In this document: piece by piece, positions 15,113 to 58,226 of the stretch
How positions within the stretch are numbered: the first letter of the stretch is position 1
How the letters are laid out: each line of letters begins with the position of its first letter
Origin: Muricea muricata
Taxonomy: Eukaryota > Cnidaria > Anthozoa > Malacalcyonacea > Plexauridae
Assembly (NCBI GenBank): GCA_963855995.1
Contig: OY979724.1
Coordinates: forward strand, 2,143,858-2,207,857
Direction of reading: 5' to 3'
DNA length: 64,000 bases
Made by a program: the position numbers and the translations under genes
The notes under the pieces: generated by a model
The model's input: only the letters and a program-made list of their open reading frames with translations
Database searches by the model: none
What the model was told of the DNA's origin: nothing

Positions 15113-15834
15113 CACAAGCCTTCTAGAGATTGGACTGGTATAAGTATGTTTTAGAAAATCACGTCCCATCATTGACGAATAGAGGTGTAAATCAGGAACA
15201 AAAATGTTCTTGGAGAAAAATTATTAAAATACTTCTATAGTATATTCATTCGTATAATTACGATGCAATCTCTTAGAACATAACTGTTTAATTATTATAT
15301 GCCACTGTAACAGATCTTGTAGCCCCGGAGATGAACAATCATGTTATTCGTTCTCACGCTCTTTGAGTGCCACAGAAACAAACTATTCTTTCAAAGGTTT
15401 ACTTTAAAAAAGTCTCAGAGTAGCCAACCCAAAAGACAGAAAATGAGATTTGGGGACGATAATGAATTGAATATAATCTGTATGATTCATCCGTTCATTT
15501 CTGTAATTGATTGGAACCTTCTTATTACTTAACTTTAAGACGCTCTCTAGTTTGAAAATTTACTGTATCTATTAAATAGCGACTTCTTTAGTGAGCCCTA
15601 CTTGGACGGCCAACCATACTTGCTGCGTTTATATGAAAAATTTCCATAGAGTAGGAAATTTTCCTTTCCTTATATAAATCATTTCCTCATAGGGAAAAAA
15701 ATAGCAACAAGGCTAGCTCTCATGTAGGGCTCTATTGCACGCATGAGTAGTAGAAGACAAAGGTGAAGCTAGCAAATTGCGGGCGGGTAAAATTAAGGCA
15801 GGAGAGACAGGCAAACCGTCTCTCAGGCAGGCTA

Positions 15835-15910
15835 CAATGCAGTGTATGCTGTTGGAAAACTTGCTTCGTAGAGTGTGGTTTACTAAACTACTCTTCATAG
15901 TCTATTTAAG
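15835..15910 (+). promoter_or_regulatory. Putative promoter of small-ORF copy 1
   Basis: The sequence ACTTGCTTCGTAGAGTGTGG through CTATTTAAGACGACTGCAG is conserved upstream of all four type-I small ORFs. The TATTTAAG at 15901-15908 is TATA-like. A start about 30 nt downstream would place the ATG of MEEMS/MSADD first in the transcript and skip the ATG at about 15925. Confidence 0.35.
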
Positions 15911-16024
15911 ACGACTGCAGAATCATGGCTCACTTAAGAAGATTTGAGGGGCACTACAACGTAAAAGTCTGTGTCGAAGATTTCATTAAAGAATTCAACT
16001 ATAAGTATAAACAAAATATTTTCC

Positions 16025-16237
16025 ATGGAAGAAATGTCAGCAGATGATGTAAAAATTGAAGTGTATGTACACACATCCAGATCTGAACACACCGTTCACA
16101 TCAAAAAGACTGAATTACAACAGCATGTTGGCCTGCGATGCGAGCTGATAAAAGTCATGTTTTGGAGAAATCAAGCCGATGAAGTCAGTGTGACGACCGT
16201 GTACCAAAGAAGACCTGGGCGCACGCCAGAACTGTAG
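16025..16237 (+). CDS. Small-ORF family type I, copy 1 (70 aa), function unknown
   Basis: The ORF encodes MEEMSADDVKIEVYVHTSRS followed by about 50 residues and ends NQADEVSVTTVYQRRPGRTPEL-stop (shown in part). I do not recognise the family. There is no signal peptide, membrane segment or cysteine-rich pattern. Predicted content is short beta strands (KIEVYVHT) and a helix near ELQQ. Copies at 18205-18411 and 20002-20217 keep the frame; the copy at 22961-23230 is broken. The start is the first ATG after the TATA-like element; the conserved core begins nine bases later at MS. An ATTAAA signal lies at 16288-16293 and is conserved in the other copies. It could be a host micro-gene family or part of a mobile element. 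Confidence 0.4.
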   Translation: MEEMSADDVKIEVYVHTSRSEHTVHIKKTELQQHVGLRCELIKVMFWRNQADEVSVTTVYQRRPGRTPEL

Positions 16238-16884
16238 TAAACTATTATACTGTATACATTGATCGTAATCTACGTCTGATACCAAGAATTAAAGAGGACA
16301 TTTATATATGTTATGGTAATTTACGAAGTCAAATATGATGAAACATTGATGTGATTATATAGGTAGACATTCTTTGTAATACTTGTATCTCATACAGTAC
16401 GTGGAGTATAATAGTTTAGTCAGAGAATCTACAGCACAAGAAAAATATATTCATAAATTCCGTGTATTGGTTTTCCTTCCTTGTGTGTGTGTTTGGGAAC
16501 TGACTTACATGCATGTACAGTATAAACTATATTTTAAATATAATCCGGCCGTGATTTTAATGGGAATAGTCAATTGAAGGCTTGAACGTTATCAAGGTTC
16601 TTAAACTGAAAATATGATAGGAAAATCTTCATGATACGATAAAATATGTGCGACTGTGGAAGAACCACTTCAATTCGGGACTGCGTATTCCTGTCACAAA
16701 CATCGGGAGACTTGCTGTGGCAATAACTTGCATGGTTTTACTCAACGCGCACGAATATAAATAATATTCGAATCAGCGTATAAAATTCGTTGAGATGTAT
16801 TTCTTTTGTATTTATACAGTGCAATGCAATGAATTTATGACTGTTTTAAACCATACGAAATTTGATACGTCATAAAATCTTGGT

Positions 16885-16953
16885 CGAGTTCGAGGTTTCT
16901 GTGAGGTGATAGTCAGTTATTTACATATTACATAGAAACCTCGAACTCGTAAT
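16885..16953. mobile_element. Small hairpin element (GAGTTCGAGGTTTC family)
   Basis: GAGTTCGAGGTTTCTGTG and its inverted copy CATAGAAACCTCGAACTCG flank a short spacer containing GGTGATAGTCAG. Related hairpins occur at 17311-17358, 24015-24063 and 28819-28985. Confidence 0.65.
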
Positions 16954-17310
16954 CTGGTAAGTCCTTGTTTTTTAACTTCTTTGCGAATTCTATACCTATT
17001 GATGTGAAATCTAGCTCTCAAAAAAAGCTTTTCAAGACGATTCTGCTGGTATAATTGACAAGAAAAGACGGTTAAAAGAAGCGAAGTTATTTTACATTTA
17101 AAGACAACTATTTACAAAATGCATCTGTTGTCGGGAGACATGCTGTGGCAAGAACTAGGGTTTATGCAACGCGCACGAATATAAATACCACCATTCGAAC
17201 CAGCGTATAAAATTCGTTGAGATGTATTTCTTTTGTATTTATACAGCGCAATGCAATGGATTTATGACTGTTTTAAACCATACGAAATTTGATATATTGT
17301 AAAATCTTGG

Positions 17311-17358
17311 TCGAGTTCGAGGTGATAGTCGGTTTCATAGAAACCTCGAACTCGTAAT
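17311..17358. mobile_element. Small hairpin element, shortened copy
   Basis: TCGAGTTCGAGG, then GTGATAGTCGG, then AAACCTCGAACTCG: the same hairpin as 16885-16953 with a shorter loop, inside the second direct repeat. Confidence 0.6.
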
Positions 17359-17554
17359 TAATCTGTAAAATTCTTGTTCTTTAACTTCTTTGCGAATTGT
17401 ACACCTACTGATGTGAAATTTAGCTCACTAAAAAAAGGCTTTTCAAGGTGATTCTGCTGGCATAATTGGCAAGAAAAGACGGTTAAAAGAAGCGAAGTTA
17501 TTTTGCATTTAAAGACAACTATTTACAAAATGTATCTGTTGACGAGATTAAAAA

Positions 17555-18204
17555 TTTTACAATATATCAAATTTCGTATAGTTTAAAACAATCATAAATC
17601 CATTGCATTGCGCTGTATAAATACAAAAGAAATACATCTCAACGAATTTTATACGCTGATTCGAATGGTGGTATTTATATTCGTGCGCGTTGCGTAAAAC
17701 CCGAGTTATTGCCACCTGCAGCAAGTCTCCCGATGTTTGTGACAGGAATACGCAGTCCCGAATTGAAGTGGTTCTTTCACAGTCACATATATTTTATCGT
17801 ATTATGAAGATCTTCCTATGTTATCTTCAGTTCAAGAACCTTGATAACGTTCAAGCCTTCAAGGTGACTGTTGCCATTAAAATCATCGACGGATTATATT
17901 TAAAACATAGTTTACTGTACATGCATGCAAGTCAGCTCCCGAACACACACACGAGGAAGGAAAAACAATACACGGAATTTATGAATATATTTTTCTTGTA
18001 CTGTAGATTTTCTGACTAAACTCTTATACTCCATGTACTGCATGAGATACAAGTATTACAATGAATGTCTACCTCTATAATCACATCAATGTTTTATTAT
18101 ATTTCAGTTCGTAAATTACAATAACATCTAATGTCCTCTTTAATTCTTCGTATCAGAAGTACATTATTACGATCAATGTATACAGTATATTAGTTTACTG
18201 CAGA
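17555..18204 (-). repeat. Shared 3' region of the small-ORF cassette, containing LINE-ORF1-like sequence
   Basis: The plus-strand sequence CGCTGTATAAATACAAAAG onward is the same as the tail of the LINE-ORF1-like frames at 19408-19535 and 21583-21681. It encodes INTKEIHLNEFYTLIR-like residues in one frame. The cassettes therefore contain a piece of the ORF1-like sequence. The 109-aa ORF at 17690-18019 is built from this repeat and has no known domain. Confidence 0.5.
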
Positions 18205-18411
18205 CTACAGTTCTGGCGTGCGCCCAGGTCTTCTCTCATACACGGTCGTCACACTGACTTCTTCGCCTTGATTTGCTCGAAACATCACTTCCATCAGCTC
18301 AATGCCTCGCACCCCACCTTCCTGTTGTAACTCAGTTCGTTCGATGTAAACGGTGTGTTCAAATCTGGATCTGTGTACATAGACCTCAATTTTTATATGC
18401 ACTACAGACAT
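18205..18411 (-). CDS. Small-ORF family type I, copy 2 (68 aa)
   Basis: The minus-strand ORF encodes MSVVHIKIEVYVHRSRFEHT and continues to EEVSVTTVYERRPGRTPEL. The upstream ATG that opens MEEMS in copies 1 and 3 is GAG here, so the start must be MSV, which is the conserved core start of the family. Compared with copy 3, 19 codons differ and 15 of these change the amino acid. There is no frameshift or stop, and the last 22 codons differ by one silent change only. A divergent promoter module and a coiled-coil ORF lie upstream, on the opposite strand. Confidence 0.4.
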   Translation of the reverse strand: MSVVHIKIEVYVHRSRFEHTVYIERTELQQEGGVRGIELMEVMFRANQGEEVSVTTVYERRPGRTPEL

Positions 18412-18489
18412 TTCTTCCTCGGAAAATATTTTGTTTATAATTGAATTCTTTAATGAAATCTTCGGCACAGACTTTTACGTTGTAGTGCC

Positions 18490-18876
18490 CCTCAAATCTT
18501 CTTAAGTGAGCCATGATTCTGCAGTCGTCTTAAATAGACTATGAAGACTAGTTTAGTAAACCACACTCTACAACGCAAGTTTTCCAATAGCATACACTGC
18601 ATTGCAGCCTGCATGAGAGACGGTTCGCCTGTTTCTCCTGCTTTAAATTCCCGGAAACAAATTTCATTGGACGCCACCACTTCGGCGCACTGAGGATGGA
18701 TATATGACAAAGTCACTACAAAAACGCCTCACTCTGCTCAACCAAGGCTTTGGAGAACATCTCAAAGGCCCAGTGTAGGCCTCAACATATACCCATCTTG
18801 TCCGTCGTTGAGAACGGAGCTCGGTTGTCTACTGTGCGTAGATAAATGATTGCACAAACTTACCAACTAGTACAAT
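18490..18876. promoter_or_regulatory. Divergent promoter module, copy T1
   Basis: This stretch lies between small-ORF copy 2 (minus) and the coiled-coil ORF (plus). Going leftward it has a TATTTAAG box near 18530. In the middle is GGAAACAAATTTCATTGG, with an inverted CCAAT (ATTGG) at 18666-18670. Going rightward it has GTCACTACAAAAACGCCTCA, CTCTGCTCAACCAAGGC and CCCAGTGTAGGC. The block 18651-18780 recurs at 20451-20570 and 24954-25081. In the last copy it has a true TATAAAAAG and a splice donor; here both are altered. Confidence 0.5.
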
Positions 18877-19245
18877 ATGACAGATACTAGTATTGGAGTG
18901 ATTAGAAAAGAAAACGAAGCTTCGAAAGAAGGAGGCAACGCTGTCGTGAAAGAAATGTTGTCGCTGAAGGAAAAATATGACAAACAATCCCAGCTATTAC
19001 AACCAAGCTCAACTGCGCAAGCAAAAAGTTTACAATACCTCAGTGAAGAATACGACGATTTCAAGCTATTTAAATCCTCGACAGAGAAGGAAATGAAACG
19101 CTTGAGTACCAAGCTAACTGATAAAACTCTAAAATTCGACAAGGTTCCGAACAAAAAAACGAAGCGATTGAGCAATATAGCTATAAGTATACAACGTGAA
19201 AATCATTGGCAAACCACAAGCGATAGACCAGAACCAAACCGCTGA
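18877..19245 (+). CDS. Coiled-coil ORF, LINE-ORF1-like N-terminal part
   Basis: The 122-aa ORF contains a strongly helical, heptad-like stretch (KEMLSLKEKYDKQSQLL, then LSEEYDDFKLFKSSTEKEMK and LSTKLTDKT). It ends with RENHWQTT, where the frame leaves the LINE-like reading. In the next frame, ISVLIYFIKLEQLTSHC and an IAH-IP motif region continue, as in the coiled-coil-plus-RNA-binding ORF1 proteins of non-LTR retrotransposons (family knowledge). A second, expanded copy follows at 20697-21681. The ATG lies just after the T1 promoter module. It is probably a decayed or truncated retrotransposon ORF1, or a host coiled-coil gene copied with it. Confidence 0.4.
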   Translation: MTDTSIGVIRKENEASKEGGNAVVKEMLSLKEKYDKQSQLLQPSSTAQAKSLQYLSEEYDDFKLFKSSTEKEMKRLSTKLTDKTLKFDKVPNKKTKRLSNIAISIQRENHWQTTSDRPEPNR

Positions 19246-19249
19246 AGAC

Positions 19250-19535
19250 ACTGGCCAATATCTGTATTAATATATTTCATAAAACTCGAGCAACTAACGT
19301 CACATTGCAGGAAAAAGAGATTGCCCACCAAATTCCGACTGGAGGTGACAGCAGCAGACCCAATAGTATTATCAACCTCGCAAGCCAGGGTCTTCATCTA
19401 CGCCCGGCGCTGTATAAATACAAAAGAAATACATTTCAACAAATTTTATACGCTGATTCGAATAGTGGTATTCATATTCGTGCGCGTTGCGTAAAACCCA
19501 AGTTATCGCCACAGCAAGCCTCCCGATGTTTGTGA
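19250..19535 (+). pseudogene. LINE-ORF1-like C-terminal fragment, frameshifted
   Basis: The frame at 19305-19535 encodes EIAHQIPTGGDSSRPNS, resembling the IAHRVP..RPKPI motif of ORF1-type proteins. It switches frame near 19370 to one that gives STSQARVFIYARRCINTKEI. No intact frame spans the region, and no endonuclease or reverse transcriptase follows. Confidence 0.5.
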
Positions 19536-20001
19536 CAGGAATACGCAGTCCCCAATTGAAGTTGTTCTTTCACAGTCGCATTCATTTTATCGTATTATAA
19601 AGATCTTCCTACCTTATTTTCAGTTTAAGAACCTTGATAACGTTCAAGCCTTCAAGGTGACTGTTTCTATTAAAATCATAACCGGATTATATTTAAAATA
19701 TAGTTTACTGTGCATGCATGCAAGTCAGTTCCCGAACACACACGCAAGGAAGGAAAGCCAATACACGGAGTTTATGAACATCTTCTCTTGTACTGTAGAT
19801 TCTGTGACTAAACTATCATACGCCACGTACTGTATGAGATAACTACAAGTACACTGAATGTATACCTATATAATCACATCAATGTTTCATCATGTTTCGG
19901 TTCGTAAATTACAATAACATATAATGTCCTCTTTAATTCTTCGTATCAGAACTACCAGGAGGTCCATTACGAACATATACAGTATATTAGTTTACTACAG
20001 A

Positions 20002-20217
20002 CTACAGTTCTGGCGTGCGCCCAGGTCTTCTTTCATACACGGTCGTCACACTGACTTCTTCGCCTTGATTTGTTCGACAAATCACTTCCATCAGCTCAGT
20101 GCATCGGACCCGACCTTCCTGTTGTAATTCAATTTGTTGGATGTCAACGGTGTATTCAGATCTGGATGTGCGTACATAGACCTCAATTTTCATATGAACT
20201 ACAGACATTTCTTCCAA
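20002..20217 (-). CDS. Small-ORF family type I, copy 3 (71 aa)
   Basis: The minus-strand ORF encodes MEEMSVVHMKIEVYVRTSRS and ends EEVSVTTVYERRPGRTPEL. It is intact, with both the outer start (20217) and the core start MSVV (20208). The CCTTTAAGTTG..TTAAGT leader and TATTTAAG box are as in copies 1 and 2. It lies convergent to the LINE-ORF1-like sequence at 18877-19535. The family is not recognised; see copy 2 for the substitution pattern. Confidence 0.4.
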   Translation of the reverse strand: MEEMSVVHMKIEVYVRTSRSEYTVDIQQIELQQEGRVRCTELMEVICRTNQGEEVSVTTVYERRPGRTPEL

Positions 20218-20284
20218 TGAAAATGTTTTGTTTATATTCTGTAATCAAGTCTTCGACACAGACTTTTAAGTTGTAGTGCCCCTC

Positions 20285-20696
20285 AAATCGTCTTAAGTGA
20301 GCCATGATTCTGCAGTCGTCTTAAATAGACTATGAAGACTAGTTTAGTAAACCACACTCTACGAAGCAAGTTTTCCAATAGCATACACTACATTGTAGCC
20401 TGCGTAAGAGACAGTTTGCCTGTTTCTCCTGCCTTAAATTCCCGGAAACAAATTTCATTGGACGACGCTACGTCGGCGCACTGAGGATGGATATATGATA
20501 AAGTCACTACAAACAGGCCTCATTCTGCTCAACCAAGGCTTTGGAGTACATCTCAAAGGCCCAGTGTAGGCCTCAACATATACCCATCTTGTCCGTCGTT
20601 GAGAACGGAGCTCGGCTGTCTACTGTGCGTAGATAAATTATTGCACAAACTTACCAACTAGTAAGTATTGAAGCGATTAGAAAAGAAAAGGAAGCA
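20285..20696. promoter_or_regulatory. Divergent promoter module, copy T2
   Basis: It has the same order of elements as T1: a TATTTAAG box on the minus side, GGAAACAAATTTCATTGG at 20443-20461 in the middle, and CACTACAAACAGGCCTCATT then CCCAGTGTAGG on the plus side. The plus-side TATA is again lost. It separates small-ORF copy 3 from the tandem coiled-coil repeats. Confidence 0.45.
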
Positions 20697-21340
20697 TTGG
20701 AAGGAGAACACAACGCTATCGTGAAAGAAATGGTGTCGATGAAGGAAAAATATGACAAATAATGCCAGCTATTACAACCAAGCTCAACTGAGCAAGCAGA
20801 AAGTTTACAGCACCTCAGTGAAGAATACGATAAAGGAGAACTCAAAGCTGTCGTGAATGTTGTCGCCGAAGGAAAAATATGACAAACAATGCCAGCTATT
20901 ACAACCAAGCTCAACTGAGCAAGCAAAAAGTTTACAACACCTCAGTGAAGAATACGACGAAGGGAGAACTCGAAGCTGTCGTGAAAGAAATGTTGTCGCT
21001 GAAGGAAAAATATGACAAACAATGCTAGCTATTACAACCAAGTTCAACTGAGCAGGAAAAAAGTTTACAACACCTCAGACTCAGTGAAAAATAAGACGAA
21101 AGGAGAACTCAAAGCTGTCGTGAAAGAAATGTTGTCGCTGAAGGAAAAATATGACAAACAATCCCAGCTATTCCAACCAAGCTCAACTGAGCAAGCAAAA
21201 AGTTTACAACACCTCAGTGAAGAATACGACGATTTCAAGCTATTTGAATCCTCAACAAAGAAGGGAATGAAACGCTTGAGTACCAAGCTAACTGATATAA
21301 CTCTAAAATTCGGCAAGGTATCCAAACAAAAATAGACGCG
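20697..21340 (+). repeat. Four tandem units of ~130-138 bp encoding a coiled-coil segment, now broken
   Basis: Units start GGAGAACTCAAAGCTGTCG (or a variant) and run through AAGGAAAAATATGACAAACAA, ACAACCAAGCTCAACTGAGC and CACCTCAGTGAAGAATACGA, starting near 20697, 20835, 20962 and 21101. Each would encode KEMLSLKEKYDKQ-like residues, but stops (ATGACAAATAATG) and short deletions break the frame. The T1 copy has a single unit, so T2 expanded by tandem duplication. Confidence 0.7.
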
Positions 21341-21369
21341 ATTTAGCAATAAAGCTATAACTATACAAC

Positions 21370-21681
21370 GTGAAAATCATTGGCAAACCGCAAGCGATAG
21401 ACCAGAACGAAACCGCCGATGACACTGCCAATATCTGTATTAATCTATTTCATAATACTCGAGCAACTAACGTCACATTGCAGGAAAAAGAGATTGCCCA
21501 CCAAATTCCGACTAGAGGTGATAGCAGCAGACCCAATAGTATTTTCAACCTCGCAAGCCAGGGTCTTCATCTACGCCCGGCGCTGTATAAATACAAAAGA
21601 AATACATCTCAACGAATTTTATACGCTGATTCGAATGGTGGTATTTATACTCGTGCGCGTTGCATAAAACCCGAGTTATAG
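21370..21681 (+). pseudogene. LINE-ORF1-like fragment, second copy
   Basis: The frame encodes MKIIGKPQAIDQNETADDTA, then INLFHNTRATNVTLQEKEIA and HQIPTRGDSSRPNS. This is the usual layout of an ORF1 central domain (KIxGxP...ETA..., IAHRxP...RP). A second frame (21419-21667) continues with STSQARVFIYARRCINTKEI. It ends abruptly at 21671, where the duplicated GTTAAAAAATCAGACTTG segment begins. Confidence 0.5.
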
Positions 21682-21719
21682 TTAAAAAATCAGACTTGCA
21701 CAGCAATTGTGTCTAGCAG

Positions 21720-21939
21720 CAGCCTCGTACCCAGGCGCTTTATGTGCTTATAGTACAGTTATATATAGAGAGATCAGTAGATAAATTAGCGAGCGCGCGG
21801 GGGTGCTTGGGGAGGTTTTAAAGAGCGGCTTCGCTCTTCAAAACCTCCCCAAGCACCTCCGCGCGCTCGCTACTTTAGTAACTGACCTCTATATCTATAA
21901 CTGTATTAAAAGCACACAAAGCGCCTGGGTACGAGGCTG
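21720..21939. mobile_element. MULE-like palindromic MITE with 9-bp duplication
   Basis: The element starts CAGCCTCGTACCCAGGCGC and ends with its inverse. The whole element is nearly one palindrome, with a central hairpin (GGGGAGGTTTTAAAGAGC, then GGCTTC, then the inverse). A perfect 9-bp duplication, GTCTAGCAG, flanks it (21711-21719 and 21940-21948). The unoccupied site is preserved in duplication copy 1 near 14487 (GTGTCTGGTAGCTTTGG). Its ends resemble those of 4564-5059. Confidence 0.85.
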
Positions 21940-22960
21940 GTCTAGCAGCTTTAGACATCTATGTAACGGTTTTCATCTACATGGCAAATTATCATAAGGT
22001 TTCCACCACATCTTTGACATCAAATTTACTTTTGGCATTGCATGGCGCTCATTTATTATTTAACAGAAACATAGATGTAATATCACACAAGCGTTCTAGA
22101 ATGGATATACACCGTCCCCTAATACTCTTGGTATATTTTTGTCAAAGTATGTCTTAGAAAATCACGTCCCACCATTGACAAATAGAGGTGTAAATCAAGA
22201 ACAAAAATGTTCTTGGAGAAAAATTATTAAAATACTTCTATAGAGTACTCATTCATATAATTACGATGCAATCTCTTACAACTGTTTAATTATTATATAC
22301 CACTATAACAGATCTTGTAGCCCCGGAGATGAACAATCATATTTCTGGTTCTCAGGCTCTTTGAGCGCCACAGAAACAAACCATTCTTTCAAAGGTTTAC
22401 TTCAAAAAAGTCTCAGAGTAACCAACACAAAAGACAGCAAATGGGAACGATAATAAATTGAATATAATCTGGATGAATCATCCGTTCATTTCTTTAATTG
22501 ATTGGAATCTTCTTATTACTTAACTTTAAGACGCTCTCTAGTTTGAAAATTTACTGTATCTATTAAATGGCGATTCTTTTAATGAGCCCTACTTGGAGAG
22601 CCAACCATACTTGATGCGTTTATATGAAAAATTTCCATAGAGTAGGAAATTTTCCTTTCCTTATATAAATCATTTCCTCATAGGGAAAAAATAGCAACAA
22701 GGCTAGCTCTCATGTAGGGCTCTATTGCACGCATGAGTAGTAGAAGACAAAGGTGAAGCTAGCAAATTGCGGGCGGGTAAAATTAAGGCAGGAGAAACAG
22801 GCAAACCGTCTCTTAGGCAGGCTACAATGCAGTGTATGCTGTTGGAAAACTTGCTTTGTAGAGTGTGGTTTACTAAACTACTCTTCATAGTCTATTTAAG
22901 ACGACTGCAGAATCATGGCTCACTTAAGAAGATTTGAGGGGCACTACAATGTAAAAGTCT

Positions 22961-23230
22961 GTGTCGAAGATTTCATTAAAGAATTCAACTATAAGTATAA
23001 ACAAAATATTTTCCATGGAAGAAATGTCAGCAGATGATGTAAAAATTGAAGTGTATGTACACACATCCAGGTCTGAACACACCGTTCACATCAAAAAGAC
23101 TGAATTACAACAGCAAGTTGGCCTGCGATGCGAGCTGATAAAAGTCATGTTTTGTGACGACCGTGTACCAAAGAAGACCTGGGCGCACCGTCGCCAGAAC
23201 TGTAGTAAACTATTATACCGTATACATTGA
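22961..23230 (+). pseudogene. Small-ORF family type I, copy 4, frameshifted
   Basis: It is nearly identical to copy 1 up to GTCATGTTTTG at about 23154. There a 26-bp deletion (relative to copy 1) shifts the frame and replaces the conserved VSVTTVYQRRPGRTPEL tail with unrelated residues. A 4-bp insertion follows near 23189. The promoter-side sequence is intact. Confidence 0.6.
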
Positions 23231-24014
23231 TCGTAATCTACTTCTGATACCAAGAATTAAAGAGGACATTATATGTTATCGTAATTTACGAAGTCAAATA
23301 TGATGAAACATTGATGTGATTATATAGGCATACATTCATTGTAATAATTGTATCTCATACAGTACGTGGAGTATAATAGTTTAGTCAGAGAATCTACAGT
23401 GCAAGAGAATATGTTCATAAAGTCCGTGTATTGGTTTTCTTTCCTTGTTTGTGTGTTTGGGAACTGACTTACATGCATGTACAGTATAAACTATATTTTA
23501 AATATAATCCGGCCATGATTTTAATAGGAATAGTCAATTGAAGGCTTGAGCGTTATCCTGGGTTCTTAAACTGAAAATAAGATAAGAAAATCTTCATAAT
23601 ACGATAAAATATGTGCGACTGTGAAAGGACAACTTCAATTCGGGACTGCGTATTCCTGTCACAAACATCGGGAGACTGCTGTGGCAATAACTAGGGTTTT
23701 ATGCAACGCGCACGAATATGAATACCACCTTTTGAACCAGCGTATAAAATTCGTTGAGATGTGTTTCTTTTGTATTCATACAGCGCAATGCAATGGATTT
23801 ATGACTGTTTTAAACTATACGAAATTTGATATATTGTAAAATCTTTAATCTCGTTGTCAACAGATACATTTTGTAAATAGTTATCGCTTCTTTTAACCGT
23901 TTTATCTTCCCAATTATGCCAGCTGAATCACCTTGAAAAGCTTTTTTTTAAAGAGCTGGGTTTCACATCAATAGGTATACAATTCGCAAAGAAGTTAAAG
24001 AACGAGGATTAACA

Positions 24015-24063
24015 GATTATGAGTTCGAGGTTTCTATGTAACTGACAATCACCTCGAACTCGA
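24015..24063. mobile_element. Small hairpin element (GAGTTCGAGGTTTC family)
   Basis: ATTATGAGTTCGAGGTTTCTA and ACCTCGAACTCGACC form the arms around a spacer with GTAACTGACAATC. This is the third copy of the family in the mosaic. Confidence 0.55.
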
Positions 24064-24221
24064 CCAAGATTTTACAATATATCAAATTTCGTATGGTTTA
24101 AAACAATCACAAATCCATTGCATTGCATGGTATAAATACAAAAGAAATACGTCCCAACGAATTTTATACGCTGATTCGAATGTTGGTATTTATATTCGTG
24201 CGCGTTGCATAACGGAGACAT

Positions 24222-24233
24222 TGGTGCCGTGAC
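24222..24233 (+). promoter_or_regulatory. Primer-binding site of an LTR retrotransposon fragment (tRNA-His type)
   Basis: TGGTGCCGTGAC is complementary to the 3' end of histidine tRNA (CCA plus GTCACGG..). It follows GAGACAT, which fits an LTR end in CA plus one spacer base. The LTR itself is not present upstream, because the small-ORF 3' module joins directly at GCATAACGGAGACA. Confidence 0.5.
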
Positions 24234-24237
24234 GACG

Positions 24238-24486
24238 ATGGACGGTCAACAAAGATGGACGCGCAAAGGCCAGTCGACGCATTCAAATATCACAACTCAC
24301 AAGGCACAAGCGACAAAGACGACATGGAATAAAGCACAAACTCTGATGACCAGGCAGATGAACGAGACAAATTCTCACAATTTGCAAGTGGCTCTCGAGA
24401 CATTTGACGCAAAATTCGAACAGCTAAAGAAGTTAGCCGCACACATTTCCTGTAAAATCGAGACCTACACAGAACTGAAAACCTAG
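24238..24486 (+). pseudogene. N-terminal gag fragment of an LTR retrotransposon
   Basis: The ATG follows the primer-binding site by four bases. The 83-residue frame is basic at the front, then helical (TRQMNETNSHNLQVALETFD, then FEQLKKLAAHISCKIE), like the coiled-coil start of gag proteins in BEL- and Gypsy-like elements. After the stop a similar frame continues with IAKTDDYLNELMW. No protease, reverse transcriptase or integrase follows, so this is only the 5' piece. Confidence 0.45.
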
Positions 24487-24953
24487 ATCGCAAAGACAGA
24501 CGACTACCTAAACGAACTAATGTGGTAATGGGTAAGAAGTACTGCATTTAGCATTTTATTAGTTCTAACCGGCCAATTGCATAACGCAGTCCATATGAAT
24601 TCAGAAAACAAGAAACAGTCAGGACAGAGTCTGCCAAAGTCCCACAGCCTTCGCTGGAACGTCGAATTTCTGCTCAGTGACAGTGTATCGTTCAGGTAAT
24701 AATGACTAGTGAAACCAGCTACGATTGTGTGTGTGTGTGTCGTTTATAGACTCGTTCAGTTTCTTGCGCTTACTCTAAAGCTAGCTTATATTTATTTTAT
24801 CGCTATGGAAGTTTGAAGTTTCATAGAAAATGTTGTTTGCCAAATCAATTCGTTTGCCAAGCCATGAGTTAGTCTTATAATGACCAGCACACTAGGTCGT
24901 CCAGACGGAAGTGGTGATGTGGCCAATGAAATTTCCTTACCGTGATGTATTTC

Positions 24954-25081
24954 CAGGAAACAAATTTCATTGGACGACACCACTTCCGCCCACTGAGGAT
25001 GGATAAATGATAAAGTCACTATAAAAAGTCCTCATTCTGCTCAACCAAGGCTTTGGAGAACATCTCAAAGGCCCAGTGTAG
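24954..25081 (+). promoter_or_regulatory. Promoter module and first (non-coding) exon of small-ORF type II
   Basis: The block shares GGAAACAAATTTCATTGG, CACTGAGGATGGATA and TCATTCTGCTCAACCAAGGC with modules T1 and T2. Here the TATA box is intact: TATAAAAAG at 25020-25028. A start near 25050 and a donor after CAGTGTAG (25081/25082, GTATAG) give a short 5' exon. An inverted partial copy of the module lies just upstream (about 24893-24936). Confidence 0.5.
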
Positions 25082-25161
25082 GTATAGCTCTGCGATACCT
25101 AGTGACCTTGTAATGATAATCTAAAGGTTAGTTTTCTTTACTATTTTAGCAAGAGACAACA

Positions 25162-25554
25162 ATGTCTGTGAAAATTACCCTGGACGCAGCTACGCATGAA
25201 AGTTGTATACAGACAAATGGTAGCGAGATTCAGTTATCACAAGTGAGAACACGTAAATTACAAGGAGACAGATTGCAATATGAGCTGGTGCTTCTAAAAA
25301 ATTATAATGAACCTGAAACTTGTGCCATGTCTGTGAAAATTACCCTGGACGCAGCTACGCATGAAATTTGTATACAGACAAATGGTAGCGAGATTCAGTT
25401 ATCACAAGTGAGAACACGTAAATTACAAGGAGACAGATTGCAATATGAGCTGGTGTTTCTAAAAAATTATAATGAACCTGAAACTTGTGCCATGTGTCAT
25501 GGCCAGCTCAGTCGCCAAGCAAGAACAAGGCTAAGTCCTCTGCCGGAACTTTAA
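25162..25554 (+). CDS. Small-ORF family type II (130 aa) with internal 165-bp duplication
   Basis: A 68-bp intron (25082-25149, GTATAG..TTTTAG) separates the promoter exon from the coding exon. The ORF begins MSVKITLDAATHESCIQTNG and repeats its first 55 residues exactly once in tandem (25162-25326 and 25327-25491). Two bases differ, changing S to I and L to F. It ends CAMCHGQLSRQARTRLSPLPEL. Without the duplication it would be 75 aa. The MSV start, the strand-like opening and the R..R....PEL ending loosely resemble type I, and the upstream module is shared with type I cassettes. True homology of the proteins is not proven. The function is unknown. Confidence 0.45.
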   Translation: MSVKITLDAATHESCIQTNGSEIQLSQVRTRKLQGDRLQYELVLLKNYNEPETCAMSVKITLDAATHEICIQTNGSEIQLSQVRTRKLQGDRLQYELVFLKNYNEPETCAMCHGQLSRQARTRLSPLPEL

Positions 25555-25647: not shown

Positions 25648-25858
25648 GGCTGTAGTGGTCAGACCACTCGCCTTGTTGGCTCTGCTGAAAGTCGTGGGTT
25701 TTCTCCGGGTACTCCGGTTTCCTCCCACAGGGAAAGTTGACAGGGTGGGATAGGTAATACGGGCCCAAAGCTAAATGAAGAAAAAAAAAACAAAAAATAA
25801 AAAACAAAAAAAAATAAAAAACAAAAAAAAAAAAATAAAAAAAAACAAAAAAAACCAC
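25648..25858 (+). mobile_element. tRNA-derived SINE, internally deleted, with A-rich tail
   Basis: GGGGCTGTAGTGGTCAGACCACTCGCC is the tRNA-like head with an A box. It is followed by the conserved body (GTGGGTTTTCTCCGGGTACTCC, GGTTTCCTCCCACAGG) and an A-rich tail (25777-25858). Compared with the copy at 45815-46085, about 100 bp with the B box are missing. The minus-strand ORFs rich in Phe are the tail read backwards. Confidence 0.7.
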
Positions 25859-42751: not shown

Positions 42752-45288
42752 GGGCCGGTTGTATAAAAAAGTAGTTAAAGTTAATTGCAGTTAGCGTAGT
42801 TAGTTAACTGCACGACTTAACTGCGTTGCACAAAACGCAGTTAGTCGGATAGTTAACTAATCACGTAGTTAACATGCGTGTGGCTCGCGTGGGGCAGTTG
42901 ACATAAATTAGATTAAAATAAATTAAGTATTGTTTGTTTAAAAATGGCTAACAAATTCGATTCAAATAATTGCAGAAGAATGCGCCTCATCTGTGATAAA
43001 AGCAACCGTTATACATTTTTTCGTACAAATACAAACATTCACCATTATTGAAGAAAGTACTATTTCGTTGGTTTGTAAATTTCGACCTTAAAACTGGCCA
43101 AAACTTGTCTGGATCACTGGACGTCACATGTGCTAAATTGTGTAATTTGTTTGTGTGACTCACTTGACTGTATCGAGAGTGCCAAGCAGATTTGTGTAAA
43201 GATATTAAAATGTTTAGTTTGCAAACATATGCTAATGAAGAAAAGCGAAGTCAAGACATGTACTGGAAATGGATTACTAGATATTGGGGGACTGGTCATT
43301 GTTTATAGTGTGGGTTACACTGTCACCTATTAATTAATTAAACAAGCAGTTATCAAGCTCATGTCATAGAAGTGGTGAAATACATGTGTGACAACTTAAT
43401 GGTATCCTTTTGTAAAGCTTTTGGCTATAGGTGGCAGTTTGTTACAGAAACTACTTCAATATTTTAATGGTTTAATCAGCAAGTTTTTAGCAAGAGAAGA
43501 CATTTCTGTTTGGTGCAAACTTCCACCATGAATAATGACTGGCCCTTACAGAGTCACAGGATGAAAAATCAGATTTGCAATACATGTTCAACCCAGTGCC
43601 AAAATGCAAATTCTGTGAAGGCAAAACATTTGCTATATAGTGCAAATTTGATCATTTGAAACACATACATAAAATGAAAAACCAGATTCACACAAAATTT
43701 GCACCTGGGTGCCAAAATGCAAATGCATCAAATGTGCACAAATCATTCAAATGTGTGGCAAATTGTTGAAGCAATATCTGTCTAAAAGAAGAATATATCA
43801 GTTTTCAAATGATCAAATTTGCACTATATAATAACAAATTTGTTGCCTGCATGGCATTTGCATTTTGGCACTGGGTTGAAAATGTATTGTAAATCTGATT
43901 TTTCATCCTGTGAATTGTACTATCCTTGGTTACCAGACTGCAGAGTTGGTCAGAGTTGCCCCCAAGATTTTTTGGGGAAAAGTTTTTAGTACCCCTGGGA
44001 AGTGCTTCATTATTTAAGCAATTAAAACTTAAATCTGCCCCAAATCTCTAAATTTTACTGTGTTTGGTACCTATTTGCATGGTTACTTTTGTACTGTTTT
44101 GCACCCCTGCCCCTAGATTTTACACCTTCAAGATCTTGTAGAAAATTCTGCAGTGTAGATAAATTTATAAATAAACTCAAGTCATTTTCATCATGAAACC
44201 TAATCTGGGTTGGCCTAGATTAAAACCAACTTGGCTAATGTTGTTAAAGTTGAAAGAAATATTTCAATCTGTATGAGTTTATTCACTATTAGATGGTACA
44301 CTATATTTTTCAATATTGTGTTATACACAAGAATCAATATTTATTTGATGTGTTGTCAGATGTAACAAAAGTCAATATACAACTCATGTCACACTGTATG
44401 TATTTGTATCATGTCTGAGGTCATATTTTCCCATGTAACCACAGTTGCCAAGCTTACAGGTATTTTGATTTACTCAGTTACATTAAGTTGAATTACTCAA
44501 TTACATATACACACAAATTCAAAATGTCTGCCCAAAAAGCAACTACTCTAAAATAAGGGAAGAAAAGAAAAGAAAACAAAATTTTAATTCAGAAGAATGC
44601 AACCTACTGGTTAATATAGTTGAACAAAATTTAGACACATTACGGGGCCAATTTTCGAGCACAATAACAAATGCCAAAAAGCAAAAGTTGTGGGAAACTA
44701 TTTACTTCCCAGATTAACAGCTATGAAAAACGTACACCAATAGAAATTCGGGAAAATAGCAAAGCATGGCCCAAATTGACAAAAAAAACCCCAACAAATT
44801 CTGGGATAATGCAGTCTCAAAGGAAAACAGGTGGACGACCTGCAGCAAGACCACCAACCACTACCACTGCTAAAATTATAAGTCTTAGGCGATGAGCCTG
44901 GTTTTGCTTTGTTAGTGGTCTCACTTCCCGGTCGATGAGTGACGCTATAAAAAGCAAGGATTTTCCGCCAAATCTATAGCGTTTTAGGAGTTCTTCAACT
45001 GAGAAATCTTCCTAGGGAAGATGACAATTAAAAACTCTAGGTAAGCGTTGCCTTTCAGTACTATCTCGCTCATGAAAGTTGATCACTCTTAATACAGCCG
45101 CCATATTTAACTAGGTTTTGGGAAGTTAACTATGCCATTGAGGATAGTTAACTTTAACTACTTTTTAACTGCAGTTAACACTAACTGCTTTTTTGTACAA
45201 CCGACCTAACTACGTGGTTAACGTTAACCACTATTTAACTACTTTTTGGGTAGTTAAAAAGCAGTTAAGAGCTTTATACAACTGGCCC
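42752..45288 (-). mobile_element. Harbinger-type non-autonomous element B, empty site preserved
   Basis: It is the same element as A and C in reverse orientation and very close to C. The ends are GGGCCGGTTGTATAAAAAAG and the inverse of GGGCCAGTTGTATAAAGC. A perfect CAG duplication flanks it (42749-42751 and 45289-45291). The unoccupied target, GCAGACCAGAAGTATTATTA, survives at 46126-46145 in the duplicated flank and proves the boundaries. Confidence 0.92.
44574..44895 (+). pseudogene. Myb/SANT-like Harbinger accessory protein fragment (element B)
   Basis: The frame 44580-44717 encodes NFNSEECNLLVNIVEQNLDT, LRGQFSSTITNAKKQKLWET, then IYFPD and a stop. A shifted frame continues with INSYEKRTPIEIRENSKAWP and KTGGRPAARPPTTTTAKI. 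This is a Myb/SANT-like domain followed by the usual RRP..TTTAKI linker of such proteins. One frameshift breaks it. The N-terminal transposase piece lies beyond it on the opposite strand and is also broken. Confidence 0.7.
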
Positions 45289-48813: not shown

Positions 48814-52479
<3,666 letters not shown>

Positions 52480-52824: not shown

Positions 52825-55308
52825 GGGCCGGTTGTATAAAGCTCTTAACTGCTTTTTAACTACCCAAAAAGTAGTTAAATAGTGGTTAACGTTAACCACG
52901 TAGTTAGGTCGGTTGTACAAAAAAGCAGTTAGTGTTAACTGCAGTTAAAAAGTAGTTAAAGTTAACTATCCTCAATGGCATAGTTAACTTCCCAAAACCT
53001 AGTTAAATATGGCGGCTGTATTAAGAGTGATCAACTTTCATGAGCGAGATAGTACTGAAAGGCAACGCTTACCTAGAGTTTTTAATTGTCATCTTCCCTA
53101 GGAAGATTTCTCAGTTGAAGAACTCCTAAAACGCTATAGATTTGGCGGAAAATCCTTGCTTTTTATAGCATCACTCATCGACCGGGAAGTGAGACCACTA
53201 ACAAAGCAAAACCAGGCTCATCGCCTAAGACTTATAATTTTAGCAGTGGTAGTGGTTGGTGGTCTTGCTGCAGGTCGTCCACCTGTTTTCCTTTGAGACT
53301 GCATTATCCCAGAATTTGTTGGGTTTTTTTTTGTCAATTTGGGCCATGCTTTGCTATTTTCCCGAATTTCTATTGGTGTACGTTTTTCATAGCTGTTAAT
53401 CTGGGAAGTAAATAGTTTCCCACAACTTTTGCTTTTTGGCATTTGTTATTGTGCTCGAAAATTGGCCCCGTAATGTGTCTAAATTTTGTTCAACTATATT
53501 AACCAGTAGGTTGCATTCTTCTGAATTAAAATTTTGTTTTCTTTTCTTTTCTTCCCTTATTTTAGAGTAGTTGCTTTTTGGGCAGACATTTTGAATTTGT
53601 GTGTATATGTAATTGAGTAATTCAACTTAATGTAACTGAGTAACTCAAAATACCTGTAAGCTTGGCAACTGTGGTTACATGGGAAAATATGACCTCAGAC
53701 ATGATACAAATACATACAGTGTGACATGAGTTGTATATTGACTTTTGTTACATCTGACAACACATCAAATAAATATTGATTCTTGTGTATTACACAATAT
53801 TGAAAAATATAGTGTACCATCTAATAGTGAATAAACTCATACAGATTGAAATATTTAAACTTTAACAACATTAGCCAAGTTGGTTTTAATCTAGGCCAAC
53901 CCAGATTAGGTTTCATGATGAAAATGACTTGAGTTTATTTATAAATTTATCCACACTGCAGAATTTTCTACAAGATCTTGGGGGTGTAAAATCTAGGGGC
54001 AGGGGTGCAAAACAGTACAAAAGTAACCATGCAAATAGGTACCAAACACAGTAAAATTTAGAGATTTGGGGCAGATTTAAGTTTTAATTGCTTAAATAAT
54101 GAAGCACTTCCCAGGGGTACTAAAAACTTTTCCCCAAAAAATCTTGGGGGCAACTCTGACCAACTCTGCAGTCTGGTAACCAAGGATAGTACAATTCACA
54201 GGATGAAAAATCAGATTTACAATACATTTTCAACCCAGTGCCAAAATGCAAATGCCATGCAGGCAACAAATTTGTTATTATATAGTGCAAATTTGATCAT
54301 TTGAAAACTGATATATTCTTCTTTTAGACAGATATTGCTTCAACAATTTGCCACACATTTGAATGATTTGTGCACATTTGATGCATTTGCATTTTGGCAC
54401 CCAGGTGCAAATTTTGTGTGAATCTGGTTTTTCATTTTATGTATGTGTTTCAAATGATCAAATTTGCACTATATAGCAAATGTTTTGCCTTCACAGAATT
54501 TGCATTTTGGCACTGGGTTGAACATGTATTGCAAATCTGATTTTTCATCCTGTGACTCTGTAAGGGCCAGTCATTATTCATGGTGGAAGTTTGCACCAAA
54601 CAGAAATGTCTTCTCTTGCTAAAAACTTGCTGATTAAACCATTAAAATATTGAAGTAGTTTCTGTAACAAACTGCCACCTATAGCCAAAAGCTTTACAAA
54701 AGGATACCATTAAGTTGTCACACATGTATTTCACCACTTCTATGACATGAGCTTGATAACTGCTTGTTTAATTAATTAATAGGTGACAGTGTAACCCACA
54801 CTATAAACAATGACCAGTCCCCCAATATCTAGTAATCCATTTCCAGTACATGTCTTGACTTCGCTTTTCTTCATTAGCATATGTTTGCAAACTAAACATT
54901 TTAATATCTTTACACAAATCTGCTTGGCACTCTCGATACAGTCAGTGAGTCACACAAACAAATTACACAATTTAGCACATGTGACGTCCAGTGATCCCGA
55001 CAAGTTTTGGCCAGTTTTAAGGTCGAAATGAAAAAATGTATAACGGTTGCTTTTATCACAGATGAGGCGCTGCATTCTTCTGGAATTATTTGAATCGAAT
55101 TTGTTAGCCATTTTTAAACAAACAATACTTAATTTATTTTAATTTAATTTATGTCAACTGCCCCACGCGAGCCACACGCAAGTTAACTACTATACGTAAT
55201 TAGTTAACTATCCGACTAACTGCGTTTTGTGCAACGCAGTTAAGTCGTGCAGTTAACTAACTACGCTAACTGCAATTAACTTTAACTACTTTTTTATACA
55301 ACCGGCCC
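52825..55308 (+). mobile_element. Harbinger-type non-autonomous element C
   Basis: The ends are GGGCCGGTTGTATAAAGCTC and the inverse of GGGCCGGTTGTATAAAAAAG, flanked by CTG (52822-52824) and CAG (55309-55311). The left 180 bp contain two successive terminus-like sequences (the second is GGTCGGTTGTACAAAAAAGC) and more than ten TTAAC/GTTAA motifs. It is nearly identical to B in the opposite orientation. The transposase start (53010, ATGGCGGCTGTATTAAGAG) is broken by a stop near 53100. Confidence 0.9.
53218..53540 (-). pseudogene. Myb/SANT-like Harbinger accessory protein fragment (element C)
   Basis: It has the same frames as in element B (SEECNLLVNIVEQNLDTLRG, then INSYEKRTPIEIRENSKAWP) on the minus strand, with the same stop after IYFPD. 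The shared stop shows that B and C derive from one already defective source. Confidence 0.7.
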
Positions 55309-55311
55309 CAG

Positions 55312-55797
55312 GCATTTAAACTTTTAGAAATTTTCCCGCTCTTTTTTCAGCCCGATTTCAGGAAACTTTTGAAAGCCAACAGGCGATGCAGGCAAATGAA
55401 ACCTTAGTATACTCTCCTTTGAAAAGGTAAAATTGTTAAACACGTTGTTTTGTACTTACAAAGAAGCATTATACAATCTTAACAATGACTAAATCAGCCT
55501 CCCTTTATCAAGTAAACCCCCATCTTCAGAAACCTCTGCTTACCGGCCTGGCGGCCTGGCGGCCTTACGCCCCCCCCCCCCCCCACCCGAAAAGGGCCTA
55601 AAAATAAGCCCCTAAAGGCTTAATAGAGAGAACATGGTATTATTAATTTAGAATTATTTAGGTAGTAGCTAAAACACGCGCATCTTCACAAAATGGGTAA
55701 AATTTAAAAAGTATTGGTCAATTTGTTGAAAAATCCTAGATCTCCAATCTTCCGAATAGCCTGTAAAACCTGCCACACTACGCCCTAAAATTGGGCC
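55312..55797. other. Upstream region of DDX49
   Basis: It contains a GGCCTGGCGGCCTTACG stretch and a C-run at 55570-55585. No TATA box is obvious at a fitting distance. Nothing else is recognised. Confidence 0.4.
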
Positions 55798-58226
55798 ATG
55801 AAATCCAATATGGCAGACGACTTGAACGAGTCTTTCGGCGATTTGGGCATAAAAACTTGGCTGGTAAAACAGTGCAGCGCGATCGGTATTAAAAAACCGA
55901 CGGAAATCCAAGCTAAGTGTATTCCCGAGATACTAAAAGGCCGAGATTGTATTGGTTGTGCTAAAACTGGAAGTGGAAAGACTGCAGTTTTTGCACTGAG
56001 CATACTACAGCATCTTTCGAACGATCCTTATGGGGTATTTGCGGTGATTTTGACTCCAACAAGGTACATATAGCCACTTAATTTCGTTGCTGAAATGCCT
56101 TGTTCTTCGCTTTCTCAAATTTTCCAAAATAACCCTTTATAGTTTCCCGAGATCCTTTAATTTTTATAGCTATTAAATTTTCATTGAAAATCAAAACTTA
56201 GCGAAAGATTTGTTGTGGGTCTCTTTATACTTAATACGAAGTAGGTTCTTATAACATAGCCTTCATATTTCACTGTAAGATTGTCTTGTTTCCTATAAAT
56301 GACACTTCCTAAAGGCAAAGCGTTTATAGTGTTGATTTCATATTCAGAGAACTAGCATTTCAAATTGGGGATCAGTTCAAGGCACTGGGCAAGCCAATCA
56401 ACTTACAAACTGCAGTAATAACAGGTGGCATGGACATGATGACACAAAGCCTTGCGCTTGCTAAGCAACCACATGTTGTCATAGCAACGCCAGGCAGATG
56501 TGCCGACCACTTGACGAGTACAGACACTTTCAACCTGCGTAAAATCAAGTACTTGGTGTTGGATGAGGCAGATCGTCTTCTGGAAGACACATTTGCAGCC
56601 GACTTGGAAGTGATATTTTCTCACGTGGCAGAGAAACGACAGACTCTGCTCTTTAGTGCGACCCTAAATGACACAATCGAAGAGCTTCGGCAAATCACCA
56701 CAACAGAGCCATTTTGTTACAGTGTACAAGATAAGTATGTAAAATATATATGTATTATATGTCTTTTCTCTCAACTGTACTGGATGGGATTTGGAATTCC
56801 ATGCATAACCCCATAAGATGACCCCTTTAAACTTTCCTTGTCATAGAGGGAAAACTGGAGTACCTTGAGAAAACCAACCCGCTGCCAGATTGACCATTCA
56901 TTTCACGAAAGCCTCAGATTAATTACTAATAATTTTAGTTTACCACTTAATTATTGATACATGTTGGTATTTTCTCAGATTGTGCGTAATTTCCAATCAT
57001 TAAGCAACAAATTTACCCTGCCTAAAAGCAAATTGGGCCCTTCATCCACTGAAGCCAATCCCTTTCACTGAAAATGACAAAACTCTGTTAAATTGAAAAA
57101 CTAGATTCATATTAACCTGACACTGCAGGGACCAATGAAAAATTTGTTGTATTCGAACTCGCATCTTCGGGTTTCTAGACCGCCGCGCTACCAATTGAGC
57201 TATCGAGTCAACTGGGATTGGTAGTGAGTCCTATCCAATTTAAGTGCATGAAATATTTTTGTGACGACTTAACGCTTGTCTTTGAGGACGCGCAGTGTTT
57301 CAATTCTATTTCAGAACCATCCTCAGAGATATAAAAAACTAGATTTATACTAATCTGACACTGTTCGAGACAACGAATTTTTCGTTGTTCTCTGCAGTGT
57401 CAGATTAATATAAATCTGTTAAATTGTTCTACCAAAATTGCAAAGATATTTTAAGGTTTTGCATCTTAGCAGAATAAACTTACCCCTTTGCAAACATGGC
57501 CACTGTTTCAACCCTAGCCTGGAGTTTCAACCCCTCGCTCATGAGATGCCATGTCGTTCACCCCATAGGATTGCAACGGTCAGTGAACTTGACCAGAAAT
57601 ACCTTCTGATACCTGATCAAGTCAAGGACTGTTACATGGTGTACATTTTACGAGAACACACGGAGAATAAGTCCGTTATAGTCTTTACCAAGACCTGCCA
57701 AAGTTGTCAAGTGCTTGCGGTGATGTTCAGAAAGATCGAGCTCCCTTGCGTCACCTTGCATTCCCTAATGTCCCAGTCACAACGATTGGCATCCCTGGCA
57801 AAGTTCAAAACTGGAATCGTGAATATCCTGGTTGCAACCGATGTTGCTAGCAGGGGCTTGGATATACCCGAGGTTGAACTAGTGTTGAACACAAATGTGC
57901 CAAGGTCTCCAGATGACTACATCCACAGAGTTGGTAGGACCGCCCGTGCAGGGCGAGGGGGTCTGGCACTGACCTTACTAACCCAGTACGACATCAAAGC
58001 ATTGCAAAACATCGAGGAGAGAATTGGAGTGAAGCTAGCTTCGTTCGAGACCAAAGAAAGCGAAGTTCTGGCATACCTGAAAGGCGTTTTGGTCGCAAAA
58101 CGCGAGGCCGAGCTGCGCGTCAGAGACAGCGGATTGTTTGAGAAGAGAAACATTCATAAGCAAAAAAGAGCAATCTTGGAAAGCGCCCGGCAAAATACTA
58201 GTCGAAAAAAGCGAAAGAAAATTTAG
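55798..58226 (+). CDS. DDX49: DDX49, DEAD-box ATP-dependent RNA helicase (3 exons)
   Basis: Exons are 55798-56063, 56348-56734 and 57569-58226, with introns GTACAT..TTCAG and GTATGT..CATAG. The joined frame is 436 aa. DDX49 (yeast Dbp8) acts in the nucleolus in maturation of the small ribosomal subunit. Motifs seen: Q-motif KKPTEIQ (32-38), Walker A AKTGSGKT (55-62), PTRELA (87-92, split by intron 1), TPGR (136-139), DEAD (161-164), SAT (192-194), [10 protein letters not shown] (307-316), [11 protein letters not shown] (337-347). The diagnostic stretch [20 protein letters not shown] and the QYDI after motif VI match DDX49. The tail is basic (KKRKKI) and shorter than in human (483 aa). The start could also be the second ATG (55810, MADDLNESF), which has the better context. 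No AATAAA was found close downstream. Confidence 0.93.
57093..57420 (-). mobile_element. tRNA-derived SINE in DDX49 intron 2
   Basis: The minus strand contains GACTCGATAGCTCAATTGGTAG (A box) and GATGCGAGTTCGAATAC (B box) at tRNA spacing. Flanking sequences CTGACACTGCAGGGACCAATG and CTCTGCAGTGTCAGATTAAT are inverted copies, so the SINE is combined with a foldback. Confidence 0.6.

Follow-up and report, generated by a model that had tools for sequence, protein, structure and literature searches.

A candidate single-locus family of very short orphan genes in a duplicated and inverted mosaic of Muricea muricata

Organization of the locus

We analyzed 64,000 nucleotides of the cnidarian Muricea muricata (GCA_963855995.1, contig OY979724.1, positions 2,143,858 to 2,207,857 of the forward strand), hereafter the window, where a 10-kb mosaic (16025-25554) contains two types of very small open reading frames (ORFs). 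Four copies of type I, numbered 1 to 4 along the window, and one type-II gene candidate were found. All five lie where the original prediction had placed them (16025+, 18205-, 20002-, 22961+ and 25162+), as confirmed by the ORF list and by alignment. These sequences were detected at this locus only, and the differences among the type-I copies are clustered within the ORF.

Copy 1 (16034-16237, +) is open over 67 codons from an ATG common to the family (MS...), and a further in-frame ATG at 16025 extends it to 70 aa. Copies 2 (18205-18411, -) and 3 (20002-20208, -) are open over 68 codons each, the 71-aa version of copy 3 starting at a TTG. In copy 4 (23024-23230, +, ATG at 23024) the frame is lost after codon 43 through a deletion of 26 nt and an insertion of 4 nt; position 22961 is the GTG start of a mechanically called ORF. 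Three open copies with an MS start had been predicted, with 67 to 71 codons. An intact frame is indeed present in several copies (3 of 4), with lengths of 67-68 codons from the common ATG and 70 or 71 from other starts. The predicted comparison of copies 2 and 3 was exact: 19 codons differ, 15 by nonsynonymous and 4 by synonymous changes, with no indel or stop, and the last 22 codons show a single silent change.

The duplicated and inverted cassettes that had been claimed are borne out by repeat matches far beyond chance. Self-comparison of the window gave six cassette-to-cassette matches of 1056-1748 nt with 83-92% identity. The cassette common to copies 1, 2 and 4 (15790-16881, +, in copy 1) comprises the putative promoter, the ORF and a 3' region with a foldback arm at its end, while copy 3 shares it only to the equivalent of 16822. 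As aligned, the cassettes correspond to 15790-16900 (+), 17540-18649 (-), 19395-20440 (-) and 22780-23860 (+). Copies 2 and 3 form a tandem pair with a spacing of ~1.8 kb. Copies 1 and 4 lie ~7 kb from each other as direct duplicates, in inverted orientation relative to copies 2 and 3, and the 1.7 kb around copy 4 have 92% identity with copy 1. The cassettes are bounded by foldback-like elements of ~510-545 bp (17158-17701 and 23699-24212), with inverted arms of ~150 nt that are 96% and 90% complementary. Another inverted repeat is found at 21720-21939, with 108-nt arms of 89% complementarity and a 4-nt loop.

Promoter-like and poly(A)-like signals of type I

A putative core promoter with transcript start occupies the best-conserved island of the cassette (15868-15959, +), where only 2 columns vary over the four copies; a count as low, for 88 columns, arose in 10 of 5000 permutations. 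Inside it, TATTTAAG is present in all four copies (15903-15910 in copy 1), followed 29 nt beyond by TCACTT, with its A at 15932. On the 3' side of the ORF, all four copies have ATTAAA (16288-16293, +, in copy 1). We take these motifs to be a TATA box, an initiator-like element and a poly(A)-like signal, respectively. In copies 1 to 3 the type-I start is the first ATG past the putative transcript start, and in copy 4 an ATG-TAA precedes it.

Each type-I cassette may be read as a compact RNA polymerase II unit, with a TATA box, an initiator, a leader of ~90-105 nt whose first usable ATG would be the type-I start, one exon of 67-68 codons and ATTAAA. The predicted product would be a protein of 8 kDa with no hydrophobic leader visible by eye; our guess is a small cytosolic protein with partly beta structure.

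A second small frame, MAHLRRFEGHYN..., which we name by its start MAHLRR..., overlaps the type-I leader (15925-16047, ATG at 15925, 40-42 codons). It is open in all four copies (also from 22915+, 18514- and 20305-), with in-frame deletions of 6 and 12 nt. We set it aside as a less likely candidate, since a TATA-directed start would fall at or after its ATG. A spliced join from this frame to the type-I frame was also rejected: the only in-frame acceptor seen by eye leaves an intron of 31 nt.

The type-II ORF and the P2 module

The type-II ORF (25162-25554, +) encodes 130 aa, composed of two tandem units of 55 codons and a 20-residue tail ending in PEL. The tandem duplication is of 165 nt and in frame, with 2 differences between the units, both amino-acid-changing. 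Upstream there is a 132-nt module, P2 (24951-25082, +), that would include a 5' non-coding exon. Two other P2 copies adjoin, head to head, the cassettes of copy 2 (18648-18779, +) and copy 3 (20439-20570, +), and the pairwise identities are 122/132, 121/132 and 123/132. The homology of the type-II P2 with the other two ends at the predicted splice donor (25081/25082). A TATA-box candidate, TATAAAAAG (25020-25028), occurs only in the type-II copy. A putative intron of 68 nt (25082-25149, +) precedes the ORF, in the form AG|GTATAG ... TTTTCTTTACTATTTTAG|, with a good-looking acceptor. On this reading type II would be a separate unit in which a TATA box of its own and a non-coding first exon precede a single coding exon; it is perhaps a distant relative of type I.

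Both types begin with MS and end with PEL, and their overall composition is similar. A global alignment of type I with the second unit of type II scored 17.0 against -21.0 +/- 8.3 for shuffled sequences (0 of 2000 as high). It outscored all 131 other segments of the window and ranked above the 82 other ATG-started frames of 55-95 codons. Against a common origin, removal of the start Met and the PEL end left 28 of 2000 shuffles as high (p=0.014), BLASTP gave E values of only 0.15 and 10, and MAFFT aligned the two types differently from the global alignment. A common origin of both types is, on this comparison, possible.

Genome-wide occurrence and database searches

The M. muricata assembly (453,007,491 bp in 74 contigs) was searched with each element, the match counts being lower bounds. 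With the DNA of the copy-4 ORF region we found 4 places, all in the window (4 of 4 candidates scored). The copy-1 protein retrieved the same 4 places at E<=1e-3, plus one chance-level match with E 0.2 (5 of 5 scored). For the type-II unit, only its own two tandem units appeared at E<1, the other match having E 1.6 (3 of 3 scored), and P2 (132 nt) was found in 3 places, all in the window (3 of 3 scored). The genome-wide family presumed by the original prediction was therefore not recovered, and the restriction of type I, type II and P2 to one locus speaks against both a dispersed transposon and a genome-wide family.

The statement that no family matches these ORFs holds for Pfam, NCBIfam, PHROGs and PDB, where no acceptable match was obtained. 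Type-I copy 3 against Pfam gave E values of 0.052 and 0.072, below the cut-off, and the type-I profile against PDB gave an antibody light chain (0.018). Type II gave 0.00054 and 0.00071 against PHROGs, with no stretch passing alone, and 0.0069 against NCBIfam, far below the cut-off. All of these were taken as chance. A fold search of PDB with the weak type-II model gave none of 631 matches at E<=0.001, and the best of them (E 0.011, TM-score 0.30) was left unused. No relative of either type was found in viral and prokaryotic contigs and collections. Rfam showed no family at threshold anywhere in the window, so there is no known RNA in it, and among the literature titles listed none names such a small-ORF family.

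A transposable-element protein would suit the inverted and tandem repeats and the foldback-like arms of the locus, and transposase remains do exist elsewhere in the window. Yet type I, type II and P2 are confined to this locus, without dispersed copies (all matches with E<=1e-3 are within the window), and none of the searches in Pfam, PHROGs and PDB returned an acceptable match. A match to a known transposon protein, named beforehand as contrary evidence, appeared in Pfam and PHROGs only as chance-level listings, with no known transposon or viral domain. We rejected this candidate and consider it very improbable.

Distribution of differences among the type-I copies

Between copies 1 and 2, the front of the ORF differs at 29 of 138 sites and the 3' flank at 43 of 577 (Fisher test, 1.2e-5); the promoter stretch has 10/141 differing sites and the leader 4/97. 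The contrast is also found between copies 1 and 3 (30/138 vs 66/576, p=0.0032) but not between copies 2 and 3 (18/141 vs 64/583, p=0.55). Overall, the promoter and the untranslated regions (UTRs) differ far less between copies than the ORF front does.

An unsupervised scan, blind to the ORF, was run for differences between the pairs (1,4) and (2,3). It delimited a hyperdiverged segment at 16039-16205 (+), inside the ORF 16034-16237, with 18 differing columns of 141 against 14 of 843 elsewhere (0 of 300 permutations). This segment spans codon 2 to codon 58-59. When copy 1 was compared with the shared state of copies 2 and 3, the limits were identical (24/167 vs 27/845; 0 of 300 permutations), and for copies 1 and 2 the scan returned 16025-16180 (33/156 vs 58/863; 1 of 300). 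The scans of 1 vs 3 and 2 vs 3 gave another segment, a short 3'-UTR cluster (16257-16274) near an insertion of copy 3. Counting only the sites that define the two pairs, 16 of 129 fall in the ORF front and 16 of 855 elsewhere, and codons 1-46 taken against the rest gave a Fisher value of 3e-7.

Both kinds of change are raised in this front. Copies 1 and 2 have 9 silent changes where 2.3 would be expected from the flank (P=0.0007), with a synonymous divergence (dS) of 0.37, and silent change is also in excess between copies 1 and 3 (P=0.029). Nonsynonymous change between copies 1 and 2 exceeds the flank rate as well (20/104 vs 43/577, p=0.0006), and the 16 pair-defining front sites divide into 9.5 nonsynonymous and 6.5 synonymous. 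Since silent and nonsynonymous sites are raised together, the comparison suggests that the coding body is older, or less homogenised, than the shell of promoter, leader and 3' region around it.

The original prediction offered a conserved tail with a diversifying front as one possibility, which stands in part. The front of copy 1 is far more diverged from copies 2 and 3 than the 3' flank. The ratio of nonsynonymous to synonymous substitution rates (dN/dS, or omega), on the other hand, is not above 1, and only copies 2 and 3 show a tail significantly better conserved than the 3' flank (2/73 vs 64/583, p=0.023), which the remaining five copy pairs do not.

A tract common to copies 1 and 4 (15624-16363) has 9 differences in 710 sites against 75 in 983 outside (0 of 200 permutations). 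It looks like the result of gene conversion or of constraint across the transcription unit, and the frameshift of copy 4 is probably younger than this tract.

Coding status and interpretation

Our best reading of this locus is a set of orphan genes driven by TATA boxes, single-exon in type I, that were made by inverted and tandem duplication. That they form a single-locus cluster of very short genes, translated and functional as a family, is the explanation we prefer, tentatively. These duplications would have been local, probably via the foldback arms at the 3' ends of the cassettes, and later gene conversion would probably have kept the shells alike. Two versions of the coding body would have stayed apart, most simply if exchange between functionally different copies were selected against. 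A more specific form of this proposal is rather unlikely in our view. It holds that a conversion-protected pair of allele-like bodies of 67-68 codons sits in homogenised shells, with the boundary at the start codon, as a miniature specificity cassette, possibly with a second, divergently placed family member linked through the shared promoter-exon module.

Several results weigh against a functional family. Omega, which the original prediction proposed to compute by region over a genome-wide family, was obtained for the local copies. With the codon model it is 0.77 for the whole type-I ORF (p=0.48), 0.83 for the front and 0.42 for the tail (p=0.38), none of them different from 1. Differences by codon position are nearly flat in the three comparisons (12/8/14, 12/8/14 and 6/7/6). 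Taken as a whole, the promoter stretch (15790-15930) significantly exceeds the 3' flank in conservation in just 2 of 6 pairs, and one of the four copies is broken. AlphaFold models are poor, with a mean pLDDT of 54.0 for type I (beta-beta-alpha-alpha-beta) and 54.3 for type II (almost all beta). Four copies, of which 1 and 4 represent almost a single lineage within the ORF, are also a small sample, and the divergent segment could be a single event.

The serious rival, to which we grant a substantial probability, is that the frames are open by chance, in a segment duplicated locally that is non-coding or specifies a non-coding RNA and drifts neutrally, and that the divergent patch escaped or received gene conversion by chance. 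Omega values indistinguishable from 1 in the whole, front and tail, the loss of frame in copy 4, and silent sites raised along with nonsynonymous ones are what such drift would leave. Open frames are also common in the window, which contains 138 stop-to-stop segments of at least 70 codons, against 70-91 in 8 first-order Markov simulations, so that the length of the ORF is unremarkable. Under neutrality, the chance of three copies remaining free of stops is ~0.16. The 3' flank, however, accumulated 4-8 indels per pair among copies 1 to 3, while their ORFs have no frameshift. At the flank indel rate this has a chance of 0.12, which brings the joint chance to ~0.02, a rough figure conditional on open copies having been picked by the original prediction. 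Drift would also not be expected to place the divergent patch within the ORF, starting at codon 2, nor to conserve the island with the TATA box and initiator.

Positive (diversifying) selection acting on the first half of the ORF, of the kind seen in families of toxin or immune genes, would explain the 15 nonsynonymous against 3 synonymous changes in the front of copies 2 and 3 (omega 1.64), and the nonsynonymous excess over the flank between copies 1 and 2 points in the same direction. The bootstrap interval for copies 2 and 3, however, extends without an upper limit from 0.53 and includes 1. The dN/dS above 1 that a diversifying toxin- or immune-like family should have in its variable front was not found (model omega 0.83), and the pair-defining front changes are 9.5 nonsynonymous to 6.5 synonymous. 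Positive selection acting alone cannot produce an excess that extends to silent sites, and it was ruled out as the sole cause; as an explanation of the front we regard it as improbable.

If the ORFs are translated, they would constitute a de novo or fast-lost gene family, found within only 10 kb of the 453-Mb assembly, whose sister copies are similar enough for the duplication, homogenisation and separation of a young gene to be followed. That the divergence is so sharply bounded by the ORF offers a testable case of selection against gene conversion. If they are untranslated, the locus cautions that a gene family can be mimicked by nothing more than open frames and repeat structure.

Comparison with described systems

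In venom phospholipase A2 genes, non-coding parts are conserved and coding parts evolve fast, with dN/dS above 1. The present cluster resembles them in having coding sequence more divergent than the non-coding, and differs in that its dN/dS does not exceed 1.

For duplication together with flanks, the nearest described situation is, by analogy, the SpTransformer cluster of the purple sea urchin. Its Sp185/333 genes, more than 40, have two exons and less than 2 kb (PMC3091723), with repeats in the second exon (PMC3091723, PMC5491942). The likeness lies in small, locally clustered genes duplicated with their flanks, in the similarity of these flanks and in the gene conversion discussed there (PMC3091723). 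In that paper the average diversity of the Sp185/333 genes is 0.084, not above that of one neighbouring flank region (0.164), whereas in M. muricata divergence is highest in the coding body. Membership fails on gene structure, type I reading as one exon of 67-68 codons, and the two are likened by description only. Among the taxonomically restricted genes for small animal proteins, a novel orphan family of Hydra (PMC2586386) offers a further parallel, with short proteins that lack known relatives and belong to a narrow lineage, as those predicted here may. The Hydra family comes with expression data, while the candidate family reported here is described from its sequence.

Other features of the window

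Downstream of the P2 copy at 18648, a coiled-coil-like ORF of 122 aa (18877-19245, +) was recognized by eye, with decayed copies at 20664-21416. Part of this region (20664-21229) has decayed into tandem repeats of ~130 nt with stops. The ORF has no Pfam match above the cut-off, and a piece of it has no match in PDB. A resemblance to ORF1 of long interspersed nuclear elements was considered and, with these negative results, is not claimed.

A repeat of 92 nt with 93% identity occurs on opposite strands at 25679-25770 and 45972-45881, which we presume to be like a short interspersed nuclear element. Matching segments on opposite strands at 44487-44973 and 53140-53626 form an inverted duplicate with a Myb/SANT-like open segment (44487-44714, Pfam PF13873, E 1.1e-8). 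Between them, a DDE_3 transposase-like fragment (49198-49656, -, PF13358, E 2.1e-11) lies near a simple repeat translating as (YI)n. The clearest cellular gene seen in the window is a DEAD-box helicase, presumably DDX49-like, with exons at 55789-58226 (+), whose splitting by introns points to a eukaryotic, animal-like host, and a Helicase_C match of E 1.7e-29 for 57423-58226.

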